32,137 nt of DNA from a virus. The notes beneath the pieces were generated by a model. It had not been told where the DNA came from, ran no database searches, and saw only the letters and a program-made list of their open reading frames with translations. The position numbers and the translations under genes were made by a program. Of the stretch, positions 1 to 32,050 are shown in pieces (position 1 is the stretch's first letter; the number at the start of each line of letters is the position of its first letter). The DNA is taken from positions 1 to 32,137 of IMG/VR virus record IMGVR_UViG_3300031999_000130; one strand, written 5' to 3'.

Positions 1-144
1 ATCCCGCAGCGAAACCCCCCGCGAATACCGCAGATCATCATTAGACACACAAAACATACTCAACGCCCTTGTAAACTGATTGCAGCGACCATCCTATCGA
101 CTCCCCCAGCGAATCCCATAGCGACTCCCCCAGCGAATTCCTCA
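1..144. repeat. Terminal redundancy, left copy
   Basis: Bases 1-144 match 31994-32137 with one substitution (C at 20 against A at 32013). This is expected of a circular or circularly permuted genome opened inside array A. The overlap lies in repetitive DNA, so circularity is likely rather than proven. In this copy the substitution changes a Leu codon of mini-gene A11 to Arg, which suggests a contig-end error. Confidence 0.8.
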
Positions 145-241
145 GCGAAAACCGCAGCGAAAACTCCAGCAAATCCCACAGAGAAGCCACCAGAAAATCC
201 CACAGCGAATTCCGCAGATCACGATTAGACACACAAAACAT
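41..241 (-). CDS. Mini-gene A10, xxSL tetrapeptide-repeat protein (66 aa)
   Basis: The protein starts MFCVSNRDL, carries xxSL-type units including WDFL, VASL, WDLL, EFSL, GESL and GWSL, and ends SVYKGVEYVLCV. The start is the ATG inside the tail of A9 (17-nt overlap). Its 3' part is identical over at least 37 nt to the end of mini-gene B4 in the other array, at 9235-9271. The WDFL-VASL-W string is shared with A1. Function unknown. Confidence 0.65.
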   Translation of the reverse strand: MFCVSNRDLRNSLWDFLVASLWDLLEFSLRFSLRNSLGESLWDSLGESIGWSLQSVYKGVEYVLCV

Positions 242-419
242 ACTCGACATCCTTGTAGACATTACGCAAACAACGCCCGATCGCATTCTCAACATAGTAA
301 TCCCACTTTCTAACATAAATGATTGCCATTTTCGGATCAAAAGCTATACCGATTCCTTCGTGTCCAAAAAGATAGGTCGTCATGGAATCATATAAAAACC
401 TATTAGACATACTAAACAT
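225..419 (-). CDS. Mini-gene A9 with a unique, non-repetitive core (64 aa)
   Basis: This array member keeps the standard ends (MFSMSN at the start, NVYKDVEYVLCV at the end) and the standard overlaps with its neighbours. The roughly 45 residues between them are not xxSL repeats: the core runs from about RFLYDSM through GIAFDPKMAIIYVRKWDYYV to GRCL. Codon use in the core is ordinary and mixed, unlike the near-fixed TCG/CTG codons of the repeats. The core looks like a small alpha/beta protein rich in aromatics. It could be the ancestral form from which repeats arose, or a captured core placed between standard ends. No family recognised. Confidence 0.65.
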   Translation of the reverse strand: MFSMSNRFLYDSMTTYLFGHEGIGIAFDPKMAIIYVRKWDYYVENAIGRCLRNVYKDVEYVLCV

Positions 420-579
420 ACTCAACCTCTTTGTAAACTGATTTCAGCGACTCCCACAGCGGCTCCCACAGCGATTCCCCAAGCGACTCCCACAGCGACT
501 CCCGCAGCGAAAACTCCAGCGAATACCACAGCAAATCCCGCAGCGAAAACTCCAGATCAAGATTAGACACACAAAACAT
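412..579 (-). CDS. Mini-gene A8, xxSL-repeat protein (55 aa)
   Basis: The protein begins MFCVSNLDL, continues with units EFSL, RDLL, WYSL, EFSL, RESL, WESL, GESL, WEPL, WESL, and ends SVYKEVEYV. The stop is a TAG created by the next gene's ATGTTTAG start, so the VLCV tail is missing. The overlap with A9 is only 8 nt. The WEPL-WESL pair recurs at the ends of B1 and B2. Confidence 0.65.
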   Translation of the reverse strand: MFCVSNLDLEFSLRDLLWYSLEFSLRESLWESLGESLWEPLWESLKSVYKEVEYV

Positions 580-679
580 ACTCGACCCCCTTGTATACGG
601 ATTTCAGCGAATCATTCAGCGCATCACACAGCGATTCCCACAGCGAATTCCGCAGCGCATCATTAGACACACAAAACAT
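563..679 (-). CDS. Mini-gene A7, shortest xxSL-repeat protein (38 aa)
   Basis: MFCVSNDAL is followed by only four units (RNSL, WESL, CDAL, NDSL), then KSVYKGVEYVLCV. It overlaps both A6 and A8 by 17 nt. It shows how little repeat is compatible with keeping the frame and the coupling signals. The NDSL-KSVYK ending is shared with A3. Confidence 0.6.
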   Translation of the reverse strand: MFCVSNDALRNSLWESLCDALNDSLKSVYKGVEYVLCV

Positions 680-839
680 ACTCGACCTCTTTGTAGACGG
701 ATTGCAGCGAATCCCGCAGCGAAGTCCGCAGCGAAGTCCGCAGCGAATACCGCAGCGCATCCCACGGCGAAAACTCCAGCGAAATCTCCAGCGAATACCG
801 CAGCGAATACCGCAGATTATAATTTGACACACAAAACAT
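663..839 (-). CDS. Mini-gene A6, xxSL-repeat protein (58 aa)
   Basis: Starts MFCVSNYNL and ends SVYKEVEYVLCV. It carries the rare Pro variant unit (EFSP followed by WDAL) and then YSL-RTSL-RTSL, a combination also found in B2 of the opposite array. That is good evidence of exchange between arrays. Function unknown. Confidence 0.65.
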   Translation of the reverse strand: MFCVSNYNLRYSLRYSLEISLEFSPWDALRYSLRTSLRTSLRDSLQSVYKEVEYVLCV

Positions 840-963
840 ACTCAACGTCCTTGTAGACTGATTTCAGCGAAATCCGCAGCGAATACCGCAGCGAAATCCA
901 CAGCGAATTCCGCAGTGCATCCCACAGCGAATACTGCAGCGCATCATTAGACACACAAAACAT
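817..963 (-). CDS. Mini-gene A5, xxSL-repeat protein (48 aa)
   Basis: MFCVSNDAL is followed by QYSL, WDAL, RNSL, WISL, RYSL, RISL and KSVYKDVEYVLCVKL. It is a near copy of A12 at 31786-31926; the shared DNA covers most of both genes. The stop is TAA two codons past the usual place, because the downstream gene has AAATTATAA at the junction. Confidence 0.65.
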   Translation of the reverse strand: MFCVSNDALQYSLWDALRNSLWISLRYSLRISLKSVYKDVEYVLCVKL

Positions 964-1147
964 ACTCAACCCCTTTGTAAACTGATTTCAGATAAATCCG
1001 AAGCGAATTCCACAGCGAATACCACATCAAATCCCACAGCGAATCCCGCAGCGAATCACTCAGAAAATCCCACAGCGAATTTCTCAGCGAATCCCGCAGC
1101 GAAACCCCCAGAGAATACCGCAGATCATCATTAGACACACAAAACAT
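947..1147 (-). CDS. Mini-gene A4, xxSL-repeat protein (66 aa)
   Basis: MFCVSNDDL, about ten to eleven units, then KSVYKGVEYVLCV. Compared with A11 it has an extra 60 nt (positions 1031-1090), exactly five 12-nt units, with near-identical DNA on both sides. This is direct evidence of unit-wise expansion or contraction with the frame kept. Confidence 0.65.
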   Translation of the reverse strand: MFCVSNDDLRYSLGVSLRDSLRNSLWDFLSDSLRDSLWDLMWYSLWNSLRIYLKSVYKGVEYVLCV

Positions 1148-1307
1148 ACTCAACTTCCTTGTATACGGATTTCAGCGAATCATTCAGCGCATCCCCCAGC
1201 GACTCCCACAGCGAATCCCGCAGAGAATCCTCCAGCGAATCCCGCAGCGAAGTACGCAGCGCATCCCACAGCGAATACCGCAGCGCATCATTTGACACAC
1301 AAAACAT
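1131..1307 (-). CDS. Mini-gene A3, xxSL-repeat protein (58 aa)
   Basis: MFCVSNDAL, then RYSL, WDAL, RTSL, RDSL, EDSL, RDSL, WESL, GDAL, NDSL, and KSVYKEVEYVLCV. The ATG at 1307 is preceded by an AAGG-type SD that lies inside the tail of A2. Its RDxLNDSL ending resembles A13. Confidence 0.65.
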   Translation of the reverse strand: MFCVSNDALRYSLWDALRTSLRDSLEDSLRDSLWESLGDALNDSLKSVYKEVEYVLCV

Positions 1308-1443
1308 ACTCAACGTCCTTGTATACCGATTGCAGCGAATCACTCAGCGACTCCCACAACAAATCCCACAGCGCATCCCGCAGCGAAAACTCCAGCGAAT
1401 ACCCCAGCGAATTCCTTAGCTGCCCATTAGACATGCTAAACAT
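1288..1443 (-). CDS. Mini-gene A2, xxSL-repeat protein (51 aa)
   Basis: MFSMSNGQL (variant start, as in A1 and A9), then RNSL, GYSL, EFSL, RDAL, WDLL, WESL, SDSL, and QSVYKDVEYVLCVK. It overlaps A1 by 8 nt, because ATGTTTAG supplies the A1 stop, and A3 by 20 nt. Function unknown. Confidence 0.6.
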   Translation of the reverse strand: MFSMSNGQLRNSLGYSLEFSLRDALWDLLWESLSDSLQSVYKDVEYVLCVK

Positions 1444-1603
1444 ACTCGACGTCCTTGTATACCGATTGCAGCGAACCCCTCAGCGCATCACACAGCGACT
1501 CCCGCAAATCACCCCTAAGCGACTTCCCCAGCAAATACCACAGCGAAGCAACCAGAAAATCCCACAGCAAATTTTCCAGATCACGATTAGACATGCTAAA
1601 CAT
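1436..1603 (-). CDS. Mini-gene A1, first member of array A (55 aa)
   Basis: The start at 1603 follows an exceptionally strong SD (GGGAGGAG, a few bases before the ATG), better than those inside the array. The protein is MFSMSNRDL, then units ENLL, WDFL, VASL, WYLL, GKSL, RGDL, RESL, CDAL, RGSL, and QSVYKDVEYV. The frame is open 57 nt further upstream, but the SD favours 1603. It overlaps the 58-aa gene at 1596-1772 by 8 nt, so array A is translationally coupled to the replication operon. Confidence 0.65.
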   Translation of the reverse strand: MFSMSNRDLENLLWDFLVASLWYLLGKSLRGDLRESLCDALRGSLQSVYKDVEYV

Positions 1604-4057: not shown

Positions 4058-5269
4058 ATGTCAGATCAAATTGAGTCTACAGAGTTGGACGTCATAAAAA
4101 CAATTGCCGTCGAGTCGAAGGACGTCCTCACCATCACCAACGCGATCCAGGAGGCCAGTGTTAACGAGTCTCGGGCCGTCGTGATCAAGTCTTCTTTCAT
4201 GCCGATTTTTGAACAGCTACGAGATATCGAGTCTCAGGCCCGTGTAATCGTGGTGACTGATGCAGCACAGTTGGATGAGATGGAGACAGCGGAAAAGCTA
4301 CGACTAAAACTCGTCAAAATTCGCACAGGATCTGCACGCCTCAAGGATGATTTGAAGGAGGAAGGTTTGCGTGAGGGGCGTGCTATACAGGCCATCCACA
4401 ATGCGGCCGAAGCGATTTCTAAGGTCATCGAAAGGCATTGCAAAGAGCAGGCAACTTTTGCGGAGCGCGCTCAGGCCAGGCGCATTGAGGAGCGTGGAGA
4501 GAAGCGCATCAAGGAAATCTCAAAATATCTGCCGCTGCTGCCAGCACTCAACACCGCTGGCATGATGACCGCCATCAAAACAATGACCGACGAAAGTTTT
4601 GATTGGTGGCTCACGATGGGCGAGCAGCTGTTTGAGCTGGAGGAGCGCAAGAAACGCGATGCGGAAGCCGCAGAGGTGGCGCGTGCGGCTCAGTCCGCCA
4701 TTGATGAGGCCACAGCAGCAGCCAAGCGGGGTGAGGACCTGAAGGCCAAGGAACAAGCCGAAAAGGATCTTGCGGAGGCGCGAGAGGTTGCGCGTCTTGC
4801 AAAGATCGAGTCAGATGCAGAGATCAAGCGGGTTAAGGACGTCCAGGAAGCGGCAGAGAGGGAGGCCAAGCGTCTGCGAGATATCGCGGAAGCCGAGGCC
4901 CTGGAATCCGCCCGCGCGGCAAAGGCCATTGCTGACGCCGAGATAAAAGCCGCCAAGGACGCCCAGGAAGCGGCAGAGAGGGAGGCCAAGCGTGTCAAGG
5001 ATCAAGCCGAAGCGGGAGCTCGCGAGGTGGCCCGTCTTGCCCAGCTCGCCATTGATGAGGCCAATCGCATCAAGGCCGAACAAGACGAAGCCGACCGCGT
5101 CGCCAAGGCCGCCCCCGATGTGGAAAAATTGCTCGCGTGGTCTGTGGCCATCGAAATCCTGCAAGCCCCCGAGGTGTCGAGCCCCGAGGCGCAGGCGATT
5201 ATTGACGGGGTCCGCGGGTTGCTCGCTAAGACCGCTACATACATCCGCACCAAAACCAGCGCAATCTAA
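4058..5269 (+). CDS. Coiled-coil protein of the phage recombination region (403 aa)
   Basis: The N-terminal part has the pattern KLRLKLVKIRTGSARLKDDL (about 80-99) followed by GRAIQAIHNAAEAI. This resembles DUF1351-type phage proteins usually encoded beside single-strand annealing recombinases and ssDNA-binding proteins. From about residue 200 to 370 it is a long Ala/Glu/Lys-rich TolA-like coiled coil with an internal 40-residue duplication. The start at 4058 has a good SD (AGGAG, 5 nt); a start at 4019 would lie in the operator. First gene of the rightward early unit; partner of the ssDNA-binding-like protein that follows. Confidence 0.65.
   Translation: MSDQIESTELDVIKTIAVESKDVLTITNAIQEASVNESRAVVIKSSFMPIFEQLRDIESQARVIVVTDAAQLDEMETAEKLRLKLVKIRTGSARLKDDLKEEGLREGRAIQAIHNAAEAISKVIERHCKEQATFAERAQARRIEERGEKRIKEISKYLPLLPALNTAGMMTAIKTMTDESFDWWLTMGEQLFELEERKKRDAEAAEVARAAQSAIDEATAAAKRGEDLKAKEQAEKDLAEAREVARLAKIESDAEIKRVKDVQEAAEREAKRLRDIAEAEALESARAAKAIADAEIKAAKDAQEAAEREAKRVKDQAEAGAREVARLAQLAIDEANRIKAEQDEADRVAKAAPDVEKLLAWSVAIEILQAPEVSSPEAQAIIDGVRGLLAKTATYIRTKTSAI
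4836..4993 (+). repeat. Internal 120-nt duplication in the coiled-coil gene
   Basis: A stretch of about 38 nt at 4836-4873 recurs at 4956-4993 with one difference (T or C in the GACGTCC/GACGCCC codon). The offset is exactly 120 nt, or 40 codons. This shows recent tandem duplication of the coiled-coil repeat AQEAAEREAKR. Confidence 0.75.
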
Positions 5270-7177: not shown

Positions 7178-7305
7178 GAATAATAGATTCAGTCCGTTTT
7201 GTTTCCTGTCACATCCAAATTAATAGAGTCCAGGCGTGCTATATGGCTCTAGGTGTGGCGTCGATTTGCCTTATGGGATACGTAACGTTAGTTGGATCTA
7301 ACTGA
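7174..7305 (+). CDS. Small one-helix membrane protein before array B (43 aa)
   Basis: Begins MRIIDSVRFVSCHIQINR and has one hydrophobic segment (CYMALGVASICLMGYVTLVG, about residues 22-41). ATGA overlap upstream and TGATG overlap with mini-gene B1, so array B starts coupled to a membrane protein. Holin-like or membrane-anchoring roles are possible but not shown. Confidence 0.6.
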   Translation: MRIIDSVRFVSCHIQINRVQACYMALGVASICLMGYVTLVGSN

Positions 7306-7511
7306 TGTTTATCGTGTCAAATGATGATCTGTGGTATTCGCTGCGGGAGCCGCTGGAGTATTCGCTGGAGAAGTCGCTGTGGTATTCGCTGAGAAATTCG
7401 CTGAGGAAGTCGCTGGGGGAGTTGATGTGGGAACCGCTGTGGGAGTCGCTTGGGGTTGCGCTGCAATCAGTTTACAAAGAGGTCGAATATGTTTTGTGTG
7501 TCAAATTATGA
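7305..7511 (+). CDS. Mini-gene B1, xxSL-repeat protein (68 aa)
   Basis: Variant start MFIVSNDDL, then WYSL, REPL, EYSL, EKSL, WYSL, RNSL, RKSL, GELM, WEPL, WESL, GVAL, and QSVYKEVEYVLCVKL. Start overlaps the membrane-protein stop (TGATG). The stop is TGA, two codons past the usual position because the next member reads CAAATTATGA at the junction. Confidence 0.65.
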   Translation: MFIVSNDDLWYSLREPLEYSLEKSLWYSLRNSLRKSLGELMWEPLWESLGVALQSVYKEVEYVLCVKL

Positions 7512-7692
7512 TCTGGGGAATTCGCTGCGGATTTCGCTGGAGGTTTCGCTGTGGGATTCGCTGGAGTCTTCGCCGTGGGATGCGCTGCAGTATTCGCTGA
7601 GGACTTCGCTGCGGACTTCGCTGTGGGAGCCGCTGTGGGAGTCGCTTGGGGTTGCGCTGCAATCAGCTTACAAATTCGTAGAGTACGTATAA
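7489..7692 (+). CDS. Mini-gene B2, xxSL-repeat protein (67 aa)
   Basis: MFCVSNYDL, then units including WDSL, the rare ESSP-WDAL, QYSL, RTSL, RTSL, WEPL, WESL, GVAL, and QSAYKFVEYV. It overlaps B1 by 23 nt. No mini-gene follows, and the VLCV tail is absent. This shows that the tail depends on the next gene's start signal. Confidence 0.65.
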   Translation: MFCVSNYDLGNSLRISLEVSLWDSLESSPWDALQYSLRTSLRTSLWEPLWESLGVALQSAYKFVEYV

Positions 7693-7730
7693 CATCAACC
7701 AAAAACCAAAAAAAACAGTTAAAGGAAAAT

Positions 7731-8927
7731 ATGAATAATCAAATCGTGTCAGATCAAGAAGCAAAAGAAATTGCAATCCGTATTGCCCAAGAGGCCTACG
7801 AGAGTGTTGCAAAGCGGCCAACGGACCAAGCAAAATTTATCGATGCATACAAGCGTGGATATGTTATGCGTTTTCCCGAGCTCAAAGACAAGATCGAAGG
7901 CGCGAAGTTCACGTTTGTCGACTCGTGGCTAAAGGCCAAGCCGATCCTCGATCTCCCCGAAAACACTCATCCAAAAGACGGGCCTGCAAAGGAACGGGAT
8001 GCGTGCTTTTTTATTCGTCTAGTTGCGAATAACATGACGGTCACCTCTGTCACTACAGAGACAGCAGGAAAAGAACTTAGCGCGATCCTCGTGAACCTAT
8101 GCTGCACCTCATACTTTGACCTCCCGAATGATGACGTGCTAGTAGTCAATAACCCGACTACGCACAAACTCATTGACAACAGTGAAGGCCGTAAGGTGCT
8201 TCATTGCACAGACGGCCCTGCACTAGCCTTTGGTGATGGAGCTTGCGCTTTCTATCTTTGGGGCATCCGAGTCACGAAGAAGATGGCTTGCGAACCAATG
8301 ACAGCCATTGAAATCATGTCTATAATCGATGTAGATCAGCGTCGTGTAGTCATTGCGCGACTAGGCATTGCGTCGATTACCGATGGTGCTGAGGTGATCG
8401 ACTCGGTCGACAACTATCAATTGCTCGACATCACAAAATGCATTAATGCACGAGCAAAGACCATTGTGCTTAAGATGCTCAATCCATCAATCAATCAGAT
8501 CCACGTCGAGGCTGTCGATAGCAAGTGCAAGACCGTCCAAGAGGCTATCAATTGGCGCGCAGATATGCCACCAGGAGAGGAATGGAACCCTCTGTACATC
8601 GATTCCATGCTTCGCGAAGGCGGGAACCCAAATCAGTTGCAGCAGGGCGACACCCTGAACTTCGTGATTGGCAAGATCAATCCATCAAAGATCGTTGAGA
8701 CTGTAGCGATGCCGATTGATTCGATTACTCGTCATATGCTGGTAAATTGCGAGATCAGTGATCACGTGGCTCCCGGGTTCGTTTGTTCGTATTCTACTGG
8801 TACGAGTGCATCTATAACCCATCCAGAGCACGAGACTACTCCTCTACCAGACAACGTGGAGATAGGCGTTAAGGTCGTCCGAGAGATCGACGTGATTACA
8901 GGGCTAACTCGCTCCGTTGTTGACTAA
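7731..8927 (+). CDS. DUF6745-like protein inserted within array B (398 aa)
   Basis: ATG at 7731 follows AAAGGAAA; the frame is open further upstream only because it runs through repeat units. Residues about 155-285 match the pattern of DUF6745 proteins: LHCTDGPALAFGDG, FYLWGIRV, then IDVDQRRVVIARLG and a TVQEAINW segment. Residues 302-307 (LQQGD) recall the (R/Q)QGD motif that often follows in this family. The biochemical function of DUF6745 is unknown. The N-terminal 150 residues are helical and unassigned. Codon use is ordinary, unlike the flanking repeats. A strong terminator follows directly. Likely a cargo gene of the array locus. Confidence 0.6.
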   Translation: MNNQIVSDQEAKEIAIRIAQEAYESVAKRPTDQAKFIDAYKRGYVMRFPELKDKIEGAKFTFVDSWLKAKPILDLPENTHPKDGPAKERDACFFIRLVANNMTVTSVTTETAGKELSAILVNLCCTSYFDLPNDDVLVVNNPTTHKLIDNSEGRKVLHCTDGPALAFGDGACAFYLWGIRVTKKMACEPMTAIEIMSIIDVDQRRVVIARLGIASITDGAEVIDSVDNYQLLDITKCINARAKTIVLKMLNPSINQIHVEAVDSKCKTVQEAINWRADMPPGEEWNPLYIDSMLREGGNPNQLQQGDTLNFVIGKINPSKIVETVAMPIDSITRHMLVNCEISDHVAPGFVCSYSTGTSASITHPEHETTPLPDNVEIGVKVVREIDVITGLTRSVVD

Positions 8928-8934
8928 ATTAACC

Positions 8935-8967
8935 TAGGGCTGTAATGCAACAGCCCTATTTTTTTTT
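8935..8967 (+). terminator. Rho-independent terminator after the DUF6745-like gene
   Basis: TAGGGCTGT (8935-8943) pairs perfectly with ACAGCCCTA (8950-8958) over a six-base loop, followed by nine T residues. Only eight bases separate the T run from the ATG of B3. Expression of the second block of array B and of the last rightward genes must therefore need read-through, antitermination or a promoter not visible here. Confidence 0.9.
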
Positions 8968-8975
8968 GAGTGCTT

Positions 8976-9140
8976 ATGTTTAGTGTGTCAAATGATGATC
9001 TGCGGTTTTCGCTGAGTGCTTCGCTGCGGAATTCGCTGGAGTATTCGCTGCGGGATGCGCTGTGGGAGTCGCTGTGCGATGCGCTGAGTGTTTCGCTGAA
9101 ATCCGTATACAAAGGGGTTGAGTATGTTTTGTGTGTCTAA
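8976..9140 (+). CDS. Mini-gene B3, xxSL-repeat protein after the terminator (54 aa)
   Basis: Variant start MFSVSNDDL, then RFSL, SASL, RNSL, EYSL, RDAL, WESL, CDAL, SVSL, and KSVYKGVEYVLCV. It has no overlapping upstream gene and only a GAG at 5 nt as SD, the weakest start in either array. Probably a re-founded first member after insertion of the gene and terminator before it. Confidence 0.6.
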   Translation: MFSVSNDDLRFSLSASLRNSLEYSLRDALWESLCDALSVSLKSVYKGVEYVLCV

Positions 9141-9300
9141 TGGGAGGCTGAGGGATTCTTTGTGGGTTTCGCTGCGGATTTCGCTGCGGATTTCGCTGGA
9201 GTTTTCGCTGTGGGATGCGCTGAGAAATTCGCTGCGGGAGTCGATAGGATGGTCGCTGCAATCAGTTTACAAAGGAGTAGAGTATGTTTTGTGTGTCTAA
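9124..9300 (+). CDS. Mini-gene B4, xxSL-repeat protein (58 aa)
   Basis: MFCVSNGRL, then RDSL, WVSL, RISL, RISL, EFSL, WDAL, RNSL, RESI, GWSL, and QSVYKGVEYVLCV. The end from the RESI/GWSL units is DNA-identical to the end of A10 on the other strand of the genome. Confidence 0.65.
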   Translation: MFCVSNGRLRDSLWVSLRISLRISLEFSLWDALRNSLRESIGWSLQSVYKGVEYVLCV

Positions 9301-9472
9301 TGATGATCTGCGGTATTCGCTGGGGGTTTCGCTGTGGGTTTCGCTGCGGGAATCTATGGGATGGTCGCTGTTGTATTCGCTGTGGTATTCGCTGCGGGAT
9401 TCGCTGTGGGAGTCGCTGAGTGTTTCGCTGCAATCAGTTTACAAAGGAGTCGAGTATGTTTTGTGTGTCTAA
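9284..9472 (+). CDS. Mini-gene B5, xxSL-repeat protein (62 aa)
   Basis: MFCVSNDDL, then RYSL, GVSL, WVSL, RESM, GWSL, LYSL, WYSL, RDSL, WESL, SVSL, and QSVYKGVEYVLCV. The SD (AAAGGAG) inside the tail of B4 is close to ideal at 7 nt from the ATG. Confidence 0.65.
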   Translation: MFCVSNDDLRYSLGVSLWVSLRESMGWSLLYSLWYSLRDSLWESLSVSLQSVYKGVEYVLCV

Positions 9473-9704
9473 TGGTGATCTGCGGGATTTGCTGGGGGAT
9501 GCGCTGGAGGTTTCGCTGTGGTATTCACTGCGGGATTCGCTGAGGACTTCGCTGCGGACTTCGCTGCGGACTTCGCTGCGGGATGCGCTGCGGGATGCGC
9601 TGCGGTATTCGCTGGAGTATTCTATGCGGTATTCGTTGTGGGAGTCGCTGGGGGATGCGCTGGAATCCGTCTACAAAGAGGTTGAGTATGTTTTGTGTGT
9701 CTAA
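9456..9704 (+). CDS. Mini-gene B6, longest xxSL-repeat protein (82 aa)
   Basis: MFCVSNGDL, then about 15 units including three consecutive RTSL and two consecutive RDAL, then ESVYKEVEYVLCV. Runs of identical units are the expected trace of replication slippage or unequal exchange. One unit ends in Met and one uses TTG for Leu; otherwise codons are fixed. Confidence 0.65.
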   Translation: MFCVSNGDLRDLLGDALEVSLWYSLRDSLRTSLRTSLRTSLRDALRDALRYSLEYSMRYSLWESLGDALESVYKEVEYVLCV

Positions 9705-9870
9705 TGGTGATCTGGAAAATTCGCTGCGGGATGCGCTGGAGAAGTCGCTGGGGGATGCGCTGGGGGAGTCGCTGGAGAAGTCGCTGTGGTATTCGCTGTG
9801 GGATTTGCTGTGGGAATCGATTCGGGAGTCGCTCAGAGACGTTTACAAATCCGTAGAATACCCATCATGA
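9688..9870 (+). CDS. Mini-gene B7, last member of array B (60 aa)
   Basis: MFCVSNGDL, then ENSL, RDAL, EKSL, GDAL, GESL, EKSL, WYSL, WDLL, WESI, RESL, and RDVYKSVEYPS. The tail is rewritten after VEY because the next gene is not an array member. Its stop overlaps the ATG of the small membrane protein (ATGA). Confidence 0.65.
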   Translation: MFCVSNGDLENSLRDALEKSLGDALGESLEKSLWYSLWDLLWESIRESLRDVYKSVEYPS

Positions 9871-31330: not shown

Positions 31331-31446
31331 TATAATCCTCTCTTTCTTTTATCAATCTTTGCCGCTACTGCCATGACGATTGCAGCCACGGAAAAGCCAA
31401 TCACACACCCGATTGGCGCGTATACAAAGACCAGTGCGTCAAACAT
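31330..31446 (-). CDS. Small one-helix membrane protein after array A (38 aa)
   Basis: MFDALVFVYAPIGCVIGF continues into VAAIVMAVAA, giving one strong membrane segment (about residues 4-29), then a basic KIDKRKRGL tail. It overlaps A14 by 8 nt: the ATGTTTGA supplies the A14 stop, just as array members do for each other. It parallels the small membrane proteins at both ends of array B. Confidence 0.6.
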   Translation of the reverse strand: MFDALVFVYAPIGCVIGFSVAAIVMAVAAKIDKRKRGL

Positions 31447-31606
31447 ACTCGACATCCTTGTAAGCCGATTGAAGCAAATCCCACAGCGAAACCCCCATCG
31501 AATCCCGAAGCGCTTCCCACAGCGAACCCCTCAGCGAATGCAGCAGCGCCCCCCACAGCGAATTCCACATCGAATTCCACAGATCATCATTTGACACACA
31601 AAACAT
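31439..31606 (-). CDS. Mini-gene A14, last member of array A (55 aa)
   Basis: MFCVSNDDL, then WNSM, WNSL, WGAL, LHSL, RGSL, WEAL, RDSM, GVSL, WDLL, and QSAYKDVEYV. The stop TGA lies in ATGTTTGA of the membrane-protein gene, so the VLCV tail is absent. Confidence 0.65.
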   Translation of the reverse strand: MFCVSNDDLWNSMWNSLWGALLHSLRGSLWEALRDSMGVSLWDLLQSAYKDVEYV

Positions 31607-31802
31607 ACTCGACCTCTTTGTAGACGGATTGCAGTGAATCATTCAGCGCATCCCGCAGCGAATCCCCCAGCGACTCCCGCAGCGAAGTCCGCGGCGCATC
31701 CCACAGCGAAAACTCCAGCGCATCCCACAGCGAAAACTCCAGCGAAATCCGCAGCGAAACCCACAGCGCATCCCTCAGCTTCCCATTATACACACAAAAC
31801 AT
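31587..31802 (-). CDS. Mini-gene A13, xxSL-repeat protein (71 aa)
   Basis: Variant start MFCVYNGKL; repeated EFSL-WDA units, one with Pro (WDAP), then RTSL, RESL, GDSL, RDAL, NDSL, and QSVYKEVEYVLCVK. Shares its NDSL end with A3 and A7. Confidence 0.65.
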   Translation of the reverse strand: MFCVYNGKLRDALWVSLRISLEFSLWDALEFSLWDAPRTSLRESLGDSLRDALNDSLQSVYKEVEYVLCVK

Positions 31803-31926
31803 ACTCGACTCCTTTGTAAACTGATTGCAGCGAAATCCGCAGCGAATACCGCAGCGAAATCCACAGCGAATTCCGCAGTGCATCCCACAGCGAATACTGC
31901 AGCGCATCATTTGACACACAAAACAT
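31786..31926 (-). CDS. Mini-gene A12, xxSL-repeat protein (46 aa)
   Basis: MFCVSNDAL, QYSL, WDAL, RNSL, WISL, RYSL, RISL, then QSVYKGVEYVLCV. Near copy of A5, but with the GVEYVLCV ending and a different stop context, so the 3' junction was exchanged. Confidence 0.65.
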   Translation of the reverse strand: MFCVSNDALQYSLWDALRNSLWISLRYSLRISLQSVYKGVEYVLCV

Positions 31927-32050
31927 ATTCAACCCCTTTGTAAACTGATTTCAGAGAAATCCGAAGCGAATTCCACAGCGAATACCACATCAAATCCCGC
32001 AGCGAAACCCCCAGCGAATACCGCAGATCATCATTAGACACACAAAACAT
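31907..32050 (-). CDS. Mini-gene A11, xxSL-repeat protein (47 aa), complete copy
   Basis: MFCVSNDDL, RYSL, GVSL, RDLM, WYSL, WNSL, RISL, then KSVYKGVEYVLCVK. Equivalent to A4 minus 60 nt (five units). The first 57 bases of the window hold the truncated duplicate of its start, with one Leu-to-Arg difference. Confidence 0.65.
   Translation of the reverse strand: MFCVSNDDLRYSLGVSLRDLMWYSLWNSLRISLKSVYKGVEYVLCVK

Follow-up and report, generated by a model that had tools for sequence, protein, structure and literature searches.

Fourteen short, overlapping reading frames built on a four-residue repeat lie at the two ends of a viral contig, and the questions raised by this locus are whether they encode proteins, to which known proteins they are related and what the repeats might be for. 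The window (the whole stretch of DNA analysed, 32,137 nucleotides, IMGVR_UViG_3300031999_000130) is the record of a P22-like podovirus, in which the portal protein was matched in Pfam (E 1.7e-73) and the coat, scaffold and terminase proteins in PHROGs. It holds 21 overlapping mini-genes, here called cassettes, with 14 in array A and 7 in a second array, B. Twenty of the 21 bear repeats; the exception is the cassette at 225-419 (A13x).

Layout of the two arrays

Translation from each ATGTTT start of array A gave 14 overlapping frames on the minus strand, ten within 41-1603 and four within 31439-32050, in agreement with the original prediction of fourteen consecutive overlapping frames on one strand. 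The last 144 bases of the contig repeat the first 144 with one mismatch and the frames are continuous over this junction, so that array A is a single chain of 14; the number of copies there calls for caution, as short-read assembly may collapse or break such repeats. The chain begins with A5 (1436-1603, 55 aa), which is preceded by GGGAGGAG and ends in VEYV, and runs through A6 (1288-1443, 51 aa), A7 (1131-1307, 58 aa), A8 (947-1147, 66 aa), A9 (817-963, 48 aa), A10 (663-839, 58 aa), A11 (563-679, 38 aa, the shortest, with 4 full tetrads), A12 (412-579, 55 aa, again ending in VEYV), A13x (64 aa, with the constant ends but a middle without repeats) and A14 (41-241, 66 aa). Over the contig ends A14 meets A15 (31907-32050, 47 aa), which is followed by A16 (31786-31926, 46 aa), A17 (31587-31802, 71 aa) and, as the last member, A18 (31439-31606, 55 aa, ending in VEYV). 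The tail of A18 keeps an AAGGA and runs into a small gene of another kind (MFDALVFVYAP...), which starts at about 31446.

Several details of the predicted architecture required adjustment. Overlaps expected to span 8-20 nt measured 8, 17, 20 or 23 nt, and the repeat number in array A, put at about 4 to 11 units, was counted as 4-12 full tetrads per cassette. The constant ends of the proposed shared form were found, except that A5, A12 and A18 stop at VEYV instead of VEYVLCV, and its repeat middle does not hold for A13x.

Array B comprises seven frames on the plus strand, opposite to array A, at 7305-7692 and 8976-9870, and its two halves are separated by a plus-strand gene for a DUF6745-like protein at 7731-8927 (398 aa, without an internal repeat array). 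B1 (7305-7511, 68 aa) and B2 (7489-7692, 67 aa) precede this gene; B3 (8976-9140, 54 aa), B4 (9124-9300, 58 aa), B5 (9284-9472, 62 aa), B6 (9456-9704, 82 aa, the longest cassette, with 15 full tetrads) and B7 (9688-9870, 60 aa, the last of the chain) follow it. Repeat number aside, A8 is 97% identical to A15 and A9 is 95% identical to A16, marking A8-A9 and A15-A16 as a recent block copy. Arrays A and B also share close sequences despite their inverted orientation. To judge from these sequences, the cassettes recombine.

Coding capacity and translational coupling

With a 12-nt unit, an open frame is by itself weak proof of coding. The arrays could be a selfish or neutral minisatellite, the unit growing by slippage and recombination and harmless proteins arising as a by-product, given that the unit is a multiple of three and that the linker carries a start codon and a Shine-Dalgarno (SD) sequence; we regard this as an unlikely alternative. 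It would account for the large differences in repeat number, the recent block duplication, the shared sequence at two loci in opposite orientation and the frequency with which contigs end inside arrays. It fits less well with the absence of stop codons: the 183 units have none, against 17.1 predicted by shuffling bases inside each of the 12 columns (none of 5000 shuffles was stop-free), and stops are missing in the sense frame alone (0 in 1165 codons, compared with 19-57 in the five other frames). Nor would a minisatellite be expected to hold perfect tetrad phase. The core of every repeat cassette is 4n+3 residues long (20/20), with no frameshift and no partial unit, and phase was equally perfect in 7/7 cassettes tested from a second virus, G001, described below. 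The original prediction that all frames are intact was therefore upheld.

In the VYKxVEYV tails that precede a cassette, an SD-like stretch (AAAGGAG, AAGGAC or AAAGAGG) comes first and is followed by the ATG with which the next gene starts. For starts that follow another cassette, anti-SD energies were -4.6 to -11.2 kcal/mol; random 20-mers gave a median of -1.5 kcal/mol, with the 5% quantile at -5.9 kcal/mol. Sequence and energies thus both bear out the proposal that the SD and ATG of each gene are embedded in the tail of its predecessor. The tails that close the two halves of array B, with no further cassette directly after them, have lost the SD (YKFVEYV in B2, just before the DUF6745-like gene, and YKSVEYPS in B7) and have energies of -1.7 and +0.2, a loss that also argues against a minisatellite. 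These data support the conclusion that the region encodes proteins as a chain of translationally coupled mini-genes, of which SVYKGVEYVLCV is an example of a predicted peptide. Such a chain would offer a compact route to a growing multigene family, with one constant tail serving as C-terminus, ribosome binding site and next start.

Relationship to DUF6745-family phage proteins

The cassettes gave only chance-level matches to Pfam and PHROGs, and a tblastn search of phage records with one cassette gave no match. An exact search of IMG/VR for the constant linker found no occurrence, and scans of IMG/VR found no relatives of the window's terminase, DUF6745-like protein or cassettes. When IMG/VR was scanned at the DNA level for TCGCTGNNG units, SLxx arrays came up within long proteins bearing DUF6745 (PF20530 E 1e-39 in L023 and 6.5e-29 in L066). 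A repeat that had been thought to belong to no described family therefore occurs as an internal repeat of DUF6745-family phage proteins. In the family search 326 relatives were found, of which the best 80 were kept. The array is internal to the DUF6745 gene in 82 of 91 loci (about 90% of the IMG/VR loci found in this analysis), is made of SL, SV, QL, QV or NL tetrads and lies just N-terminal of the core, in most members between the N-terminal domain and the core.

The cassettes resemble these internal arrays in having a 12-nt in-frame unit with residues 1 and 2 fixed, W/R/G/E at residue 3 and variation at codon positions 1-2, the tetrad in both being a small or polar residue, Leu or Val, W/R/G/E and then D/A/S/N/Y. 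They differ in their placement, since the phage proteins hold the array inside a single long gene, whereas the window holds 21 separate overlapping genes with constant ends of their own. The shared unit supports the view that the cassettes are a free-standing form of the DUF6745 SLxx/SVxx/QLxx/QVxx array. For the polycistronic free-standing form itself we found no precedent.

The protein encoded at 7731-8927 matched a phage-family profile built without the window (E 1.7e-21, 72 bits, core positions 57-209). Its matches to PF20530 (19.7 bits in one search and 20.6 bits, E 3.4e-6, in another) lie under the Pfam curated cut-off of 27 bits, and for this reason we term it a distant DUF6745-like relative and not a member. 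Taken jointly, coding by the arrays and their link to DUF6745 appear very probable on this sequence evidence. The middle of A13x bears a weak likeness to the first segment of the DUF6745 core and might be a fragment of it, but this is suggestive only: comparison with the DUF6745 segment 3' of the array in other phages gave an hhalign E of 0.017 at a probability of 2.7% (shuffle p 0.04), and the DUF6745-family profile did not pick up A13x.

Separation of the array from the DUF6745 gene is seen in other viruses as well. Free-standing arrays were present in 4 of the 9 loci classed as array-free, compared with 2 of the 82 with an internal array, these two being low-complexity look-alikes (Fisher p 6e-4). 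One of the nine, L151, is truncated at the end of its contig, and two more, L183 and L202, do carry arrays, which the detector overlooked; the real contrast is therefore probably stronger. That free-standing arrays adjoin array-free DUF6745 genes is a further point against a minisatellite. In G001 (IMGVR_UViG_3300036766_000512), a DUF6745 gene without an array (PF20530 E 1.1e-57) is preceded by two cassettes and followed by at least six, all on one strand. As in the window, each start overlaps the preceding stop and an SD is embedded in the tail (GGGAGG); unlike the window, the overlaps are 4-nt GTGA, the GC content is 0.68 and the constant ends, VIPLGKPL and REDLTP, are unrelated to MFCVSN and VYKxVEYVLCV. 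No stops occur in 96 units of G001, where 3.6 are expected (P 0.015). L150 (GC 0.40) combines an array-free DUF6745 gene with a pair of MKNNRNQV mini-genes made of QV tetrads, and the ATG of the second lies inside the TNEK-stop tail of the first. A separate RV array lies 5' of the DUF6745 gene in L149, and in L145 a separate SL gene immediately follows an array-free DUF6745 gene.

L145 also has diverged small SL-like genes (4532-4750, 7268-7444, 7441-7629, 7557-7769, 8537-8800 and 8801-8989), with stretches such as PLMDSLHQSL and PLRDSLIRSL. They are maybe an old, diversified mini-gene family around the DUF6745 gene. Contigs end in or at arrays in L138, L139, L142, L149, L151, L152 and others, as they do in the window and G001, and assemblies therefore probably undercount arrays.

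Unit variation, predicted structure and possible function

Counting from Leu, the second codon of the window's units is CGG, TGG, GGG, AGG or GAG in 156 of 183 cases, with an almost free first base and a nearly fixed third. Across 72 viral arrays mean entropy was 1.49 bits at base 7 and 1.03 bits at base 11, and at most 0.41 bits elsewhere. In 1569 units of these arrays the third codon reads NGG, giving W, R or G, and variation at base 11 (GAC/GCC/GGC) gives D, A or G, whatever the fixed residues. Residue classes at positions 3 and 4 that are common to 72 arrays of differing base composition are not readily explained by a minisatellite. Targeted mutation may be the source of the unit variation. 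A diversity-generating retroelement is argued against by the pattern of bases, in which other adenines of the unit (as in CAG) stay fixed and only two fixed sites vary.

An analogous array of 12-bp, four-residue units had already been described in gp54 of mycobacteriophage Tweety (PMC2884959), which also contradicts the original view that no known family has such a repeat. In Tweety gp54, Che8 gp57 and PMC gp51 the 12-bp unit is present in 15-48 copies; positions 9 and 12 of the gp54-type unit are invariant and positions 7, 8, 10 and 11 vary to give G/W/Q and S/Y (PMC2884959). Change in gp54 is non-synonymous with little synonymous change, which its authors considered consistent with selection for variation (PMC2884959). 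Two reviews describe Tweety mutants that escape the Phrann and MichelleMyBell prophage defences as having a changed number of tetrapeptide repeats, and present gp54 as a counter-defence protein tuned by repeat number (PMC9262239, PMC8549241). The cassettes share with gp54 the 12-bp unit, in which two residues vary through their first and second codon positions and the third positions are quiet. In gp54, however, the first two residues of the unit are Ala-Ala and the array belongs to a single gene. We considered gp54 as a DUF6745 member and rejected it, as it had no match in Pfam and was not hit by profiles made from the N-terminal region and the core of DUF6745; the cassettes have no domains like the N- and C-terminal domains of gp54. 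Since gp54 shares the repeat design and not the DUF6745 domains, the functional link is one of analogy only.

Two other repeat systems bear comparison. Variable region 2 of Bordetella phage BMP-1 bbp36 shows repeat-number variation in a non-essential phage gene, as summarised in a paper that cites the work (PMC2884959). Its unit, unlike that of the cassettes, is 24 bp, and we set it beside them by description only. The TAEL repeats of type I restriction HsdS subunits (EcoR124 type) also have a 12-bp unit and a four-residue helical repeat whose number alters specificity, but they are present in only two or three copies, are not hypervariable and belong to a different protein.

AlphaFold2, run on cassette B6 with 19 others, predicted for B6 one unbroken helix over residues 6-81 (mean pLDDT 90.6), in line with the helix first proposed, although AlphaFold2 is prone to calling low-complexity repeats helical. 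The specific kinds of helix that had been suggested fared less well. A mean Eisenberg hydrophobicity of about 0 does not favour a membrane helix, and with cassette net charges of -7 to +2 a soluble rod fits better; the strict four-residue period, and a hydrophobic moment greater at 90 than at 100 degrees, speak against a coiled coil of the heptad type. In a model of the intact DUF6745 protein L140, confidence was good for the N-terminal domain and the core and low for the array (pLDDT 33-50), a second caution about the predicted helix. A Foldseek search of the PDB with the DUF6745 model gave no match (best E 0.7), VIA-align, applied to the same candidates, reached a Z of no more than 3.7, and with these two methods we found no solved fold for the core.

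Tentatively, and largely by analogy, we read the cassettes as a coupled, expandable repertoire of helical rods that partners the DUF6745-like protein, with counter-defence as the most likely role. In the window and a few other viruses the array stands outside the DUF6745 protein, with a start and tail of its own; in the window and G001 it has also multiplied. The neighbouring gene still codes for the DUF6745-like protein. A cassette would fold as a single helical rod, whose tetrads pair a constant Leu and Ser/Ala with two variable residues, and rods of many lengths and surfaces could arise as 12-nt units or entire cassettes are gained, lost and exchanged. Working with or on the DUF6745-like protein, these might counter host or prophage defences through a binding surface that can be adjusted, and counter-defence may be changed through repeat number much as in Tweety gp54.

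A quite different role would be that of a structural spacer or ruler, in which the length of a helical linker sets the distance between domains and the free cassettes act as assembly or scaffold rods. The array's internal position between N-terminal domain and core in most DUF6745 members and the predicted helix both suit such a role, as does the idea, published for Tweety, that the repeats set the juxtaposition of the two end domains of gp54 (PMC9262239). Free-standing rods cannot set the juxtaposition of two end domains, so that this published idea counts against a repertoire of rods. Free-standing copies connect nothing, however, and a spacer does not require strong variation of two residues per unit; we therefore consider the spacer quite improbable. 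The free-standing form is hard to fit to it, and for this reason a binding surface acting in trans is favoured.

A function of the DNA itself, as a recombination hot spot, a packaging or replication site or a G-run structure, seems very improbable: the coding strand is G-rich with a GGG run in many units and a strong GC skew, and the arrays lie near replication-type genes, but the units differ among viruses (TCGCTG, CAGGTC, RV and NL types) while the protein pattern is constant, and the reading frame, the phase and the two separate loci in opposite orientation do not fit. Chi-like sites and G runs were considered and discarded, as the motifs are not common to arrays of different viruses.

If the cassettes are a repertoire of rods, some phages may have turned the hypervariable repeat of a counter-defence-type protein into an expandable library, deploying per infection many separately translated rods that differ in length and surface, work in trans with a DUF6745-like protein and meet many host or prophage defences at once, an extension that we think unlikely on present grounds. 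Were it true, the stand-alone arrays would be proof that binding resides in the repeat, which would then be more than a spacer. The stand-alone repeat thus makes this a system that can tell a spacer model from a binding-surface model, and it would join DUF6745, a widespread hypervariable 12-nt phage repeat and one studied analogue that is a tunable counter-defence protein.

Regarding the wider distribution of DUF6745, the domain was found in 6 of 198 host genomes, all of one phylum, with no array detected in the loci examined, and no paper that names it was found in the open-access literature searched. No defence or counter-defence genes were identified adjoining the DUF6745/array loci, a point against a counter-defence role; their recurrent neighbours, judged by eye, are recombination- and replication-like genes. 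A small protein with QGDV...GE(A/T)TGHHH...H(Q/E)EH...PG motifs, cupin-like by eye, is absent from the window and occurs in 48 of 93 DUF6745 loci; in at least 28 of 84 it is the direct neighbour of the gene for DUF6745. Examples lie at 4204-4590 in L145, 1196-1582 in L149, 5611-6057 in L150 and 686-1030 in L151, and three had no Pfam match. The DUF6745 gene at 4863-5942 in L215 has an in-frame stop 3' of the array and is probably broken or carries a sequencing error. In a Mycobacterium abscessus prophage, the DUF6745 protein encoded at 3188-4633 of L134 (prophiGD102-1 gp38) contains about 47 QL tetrads.
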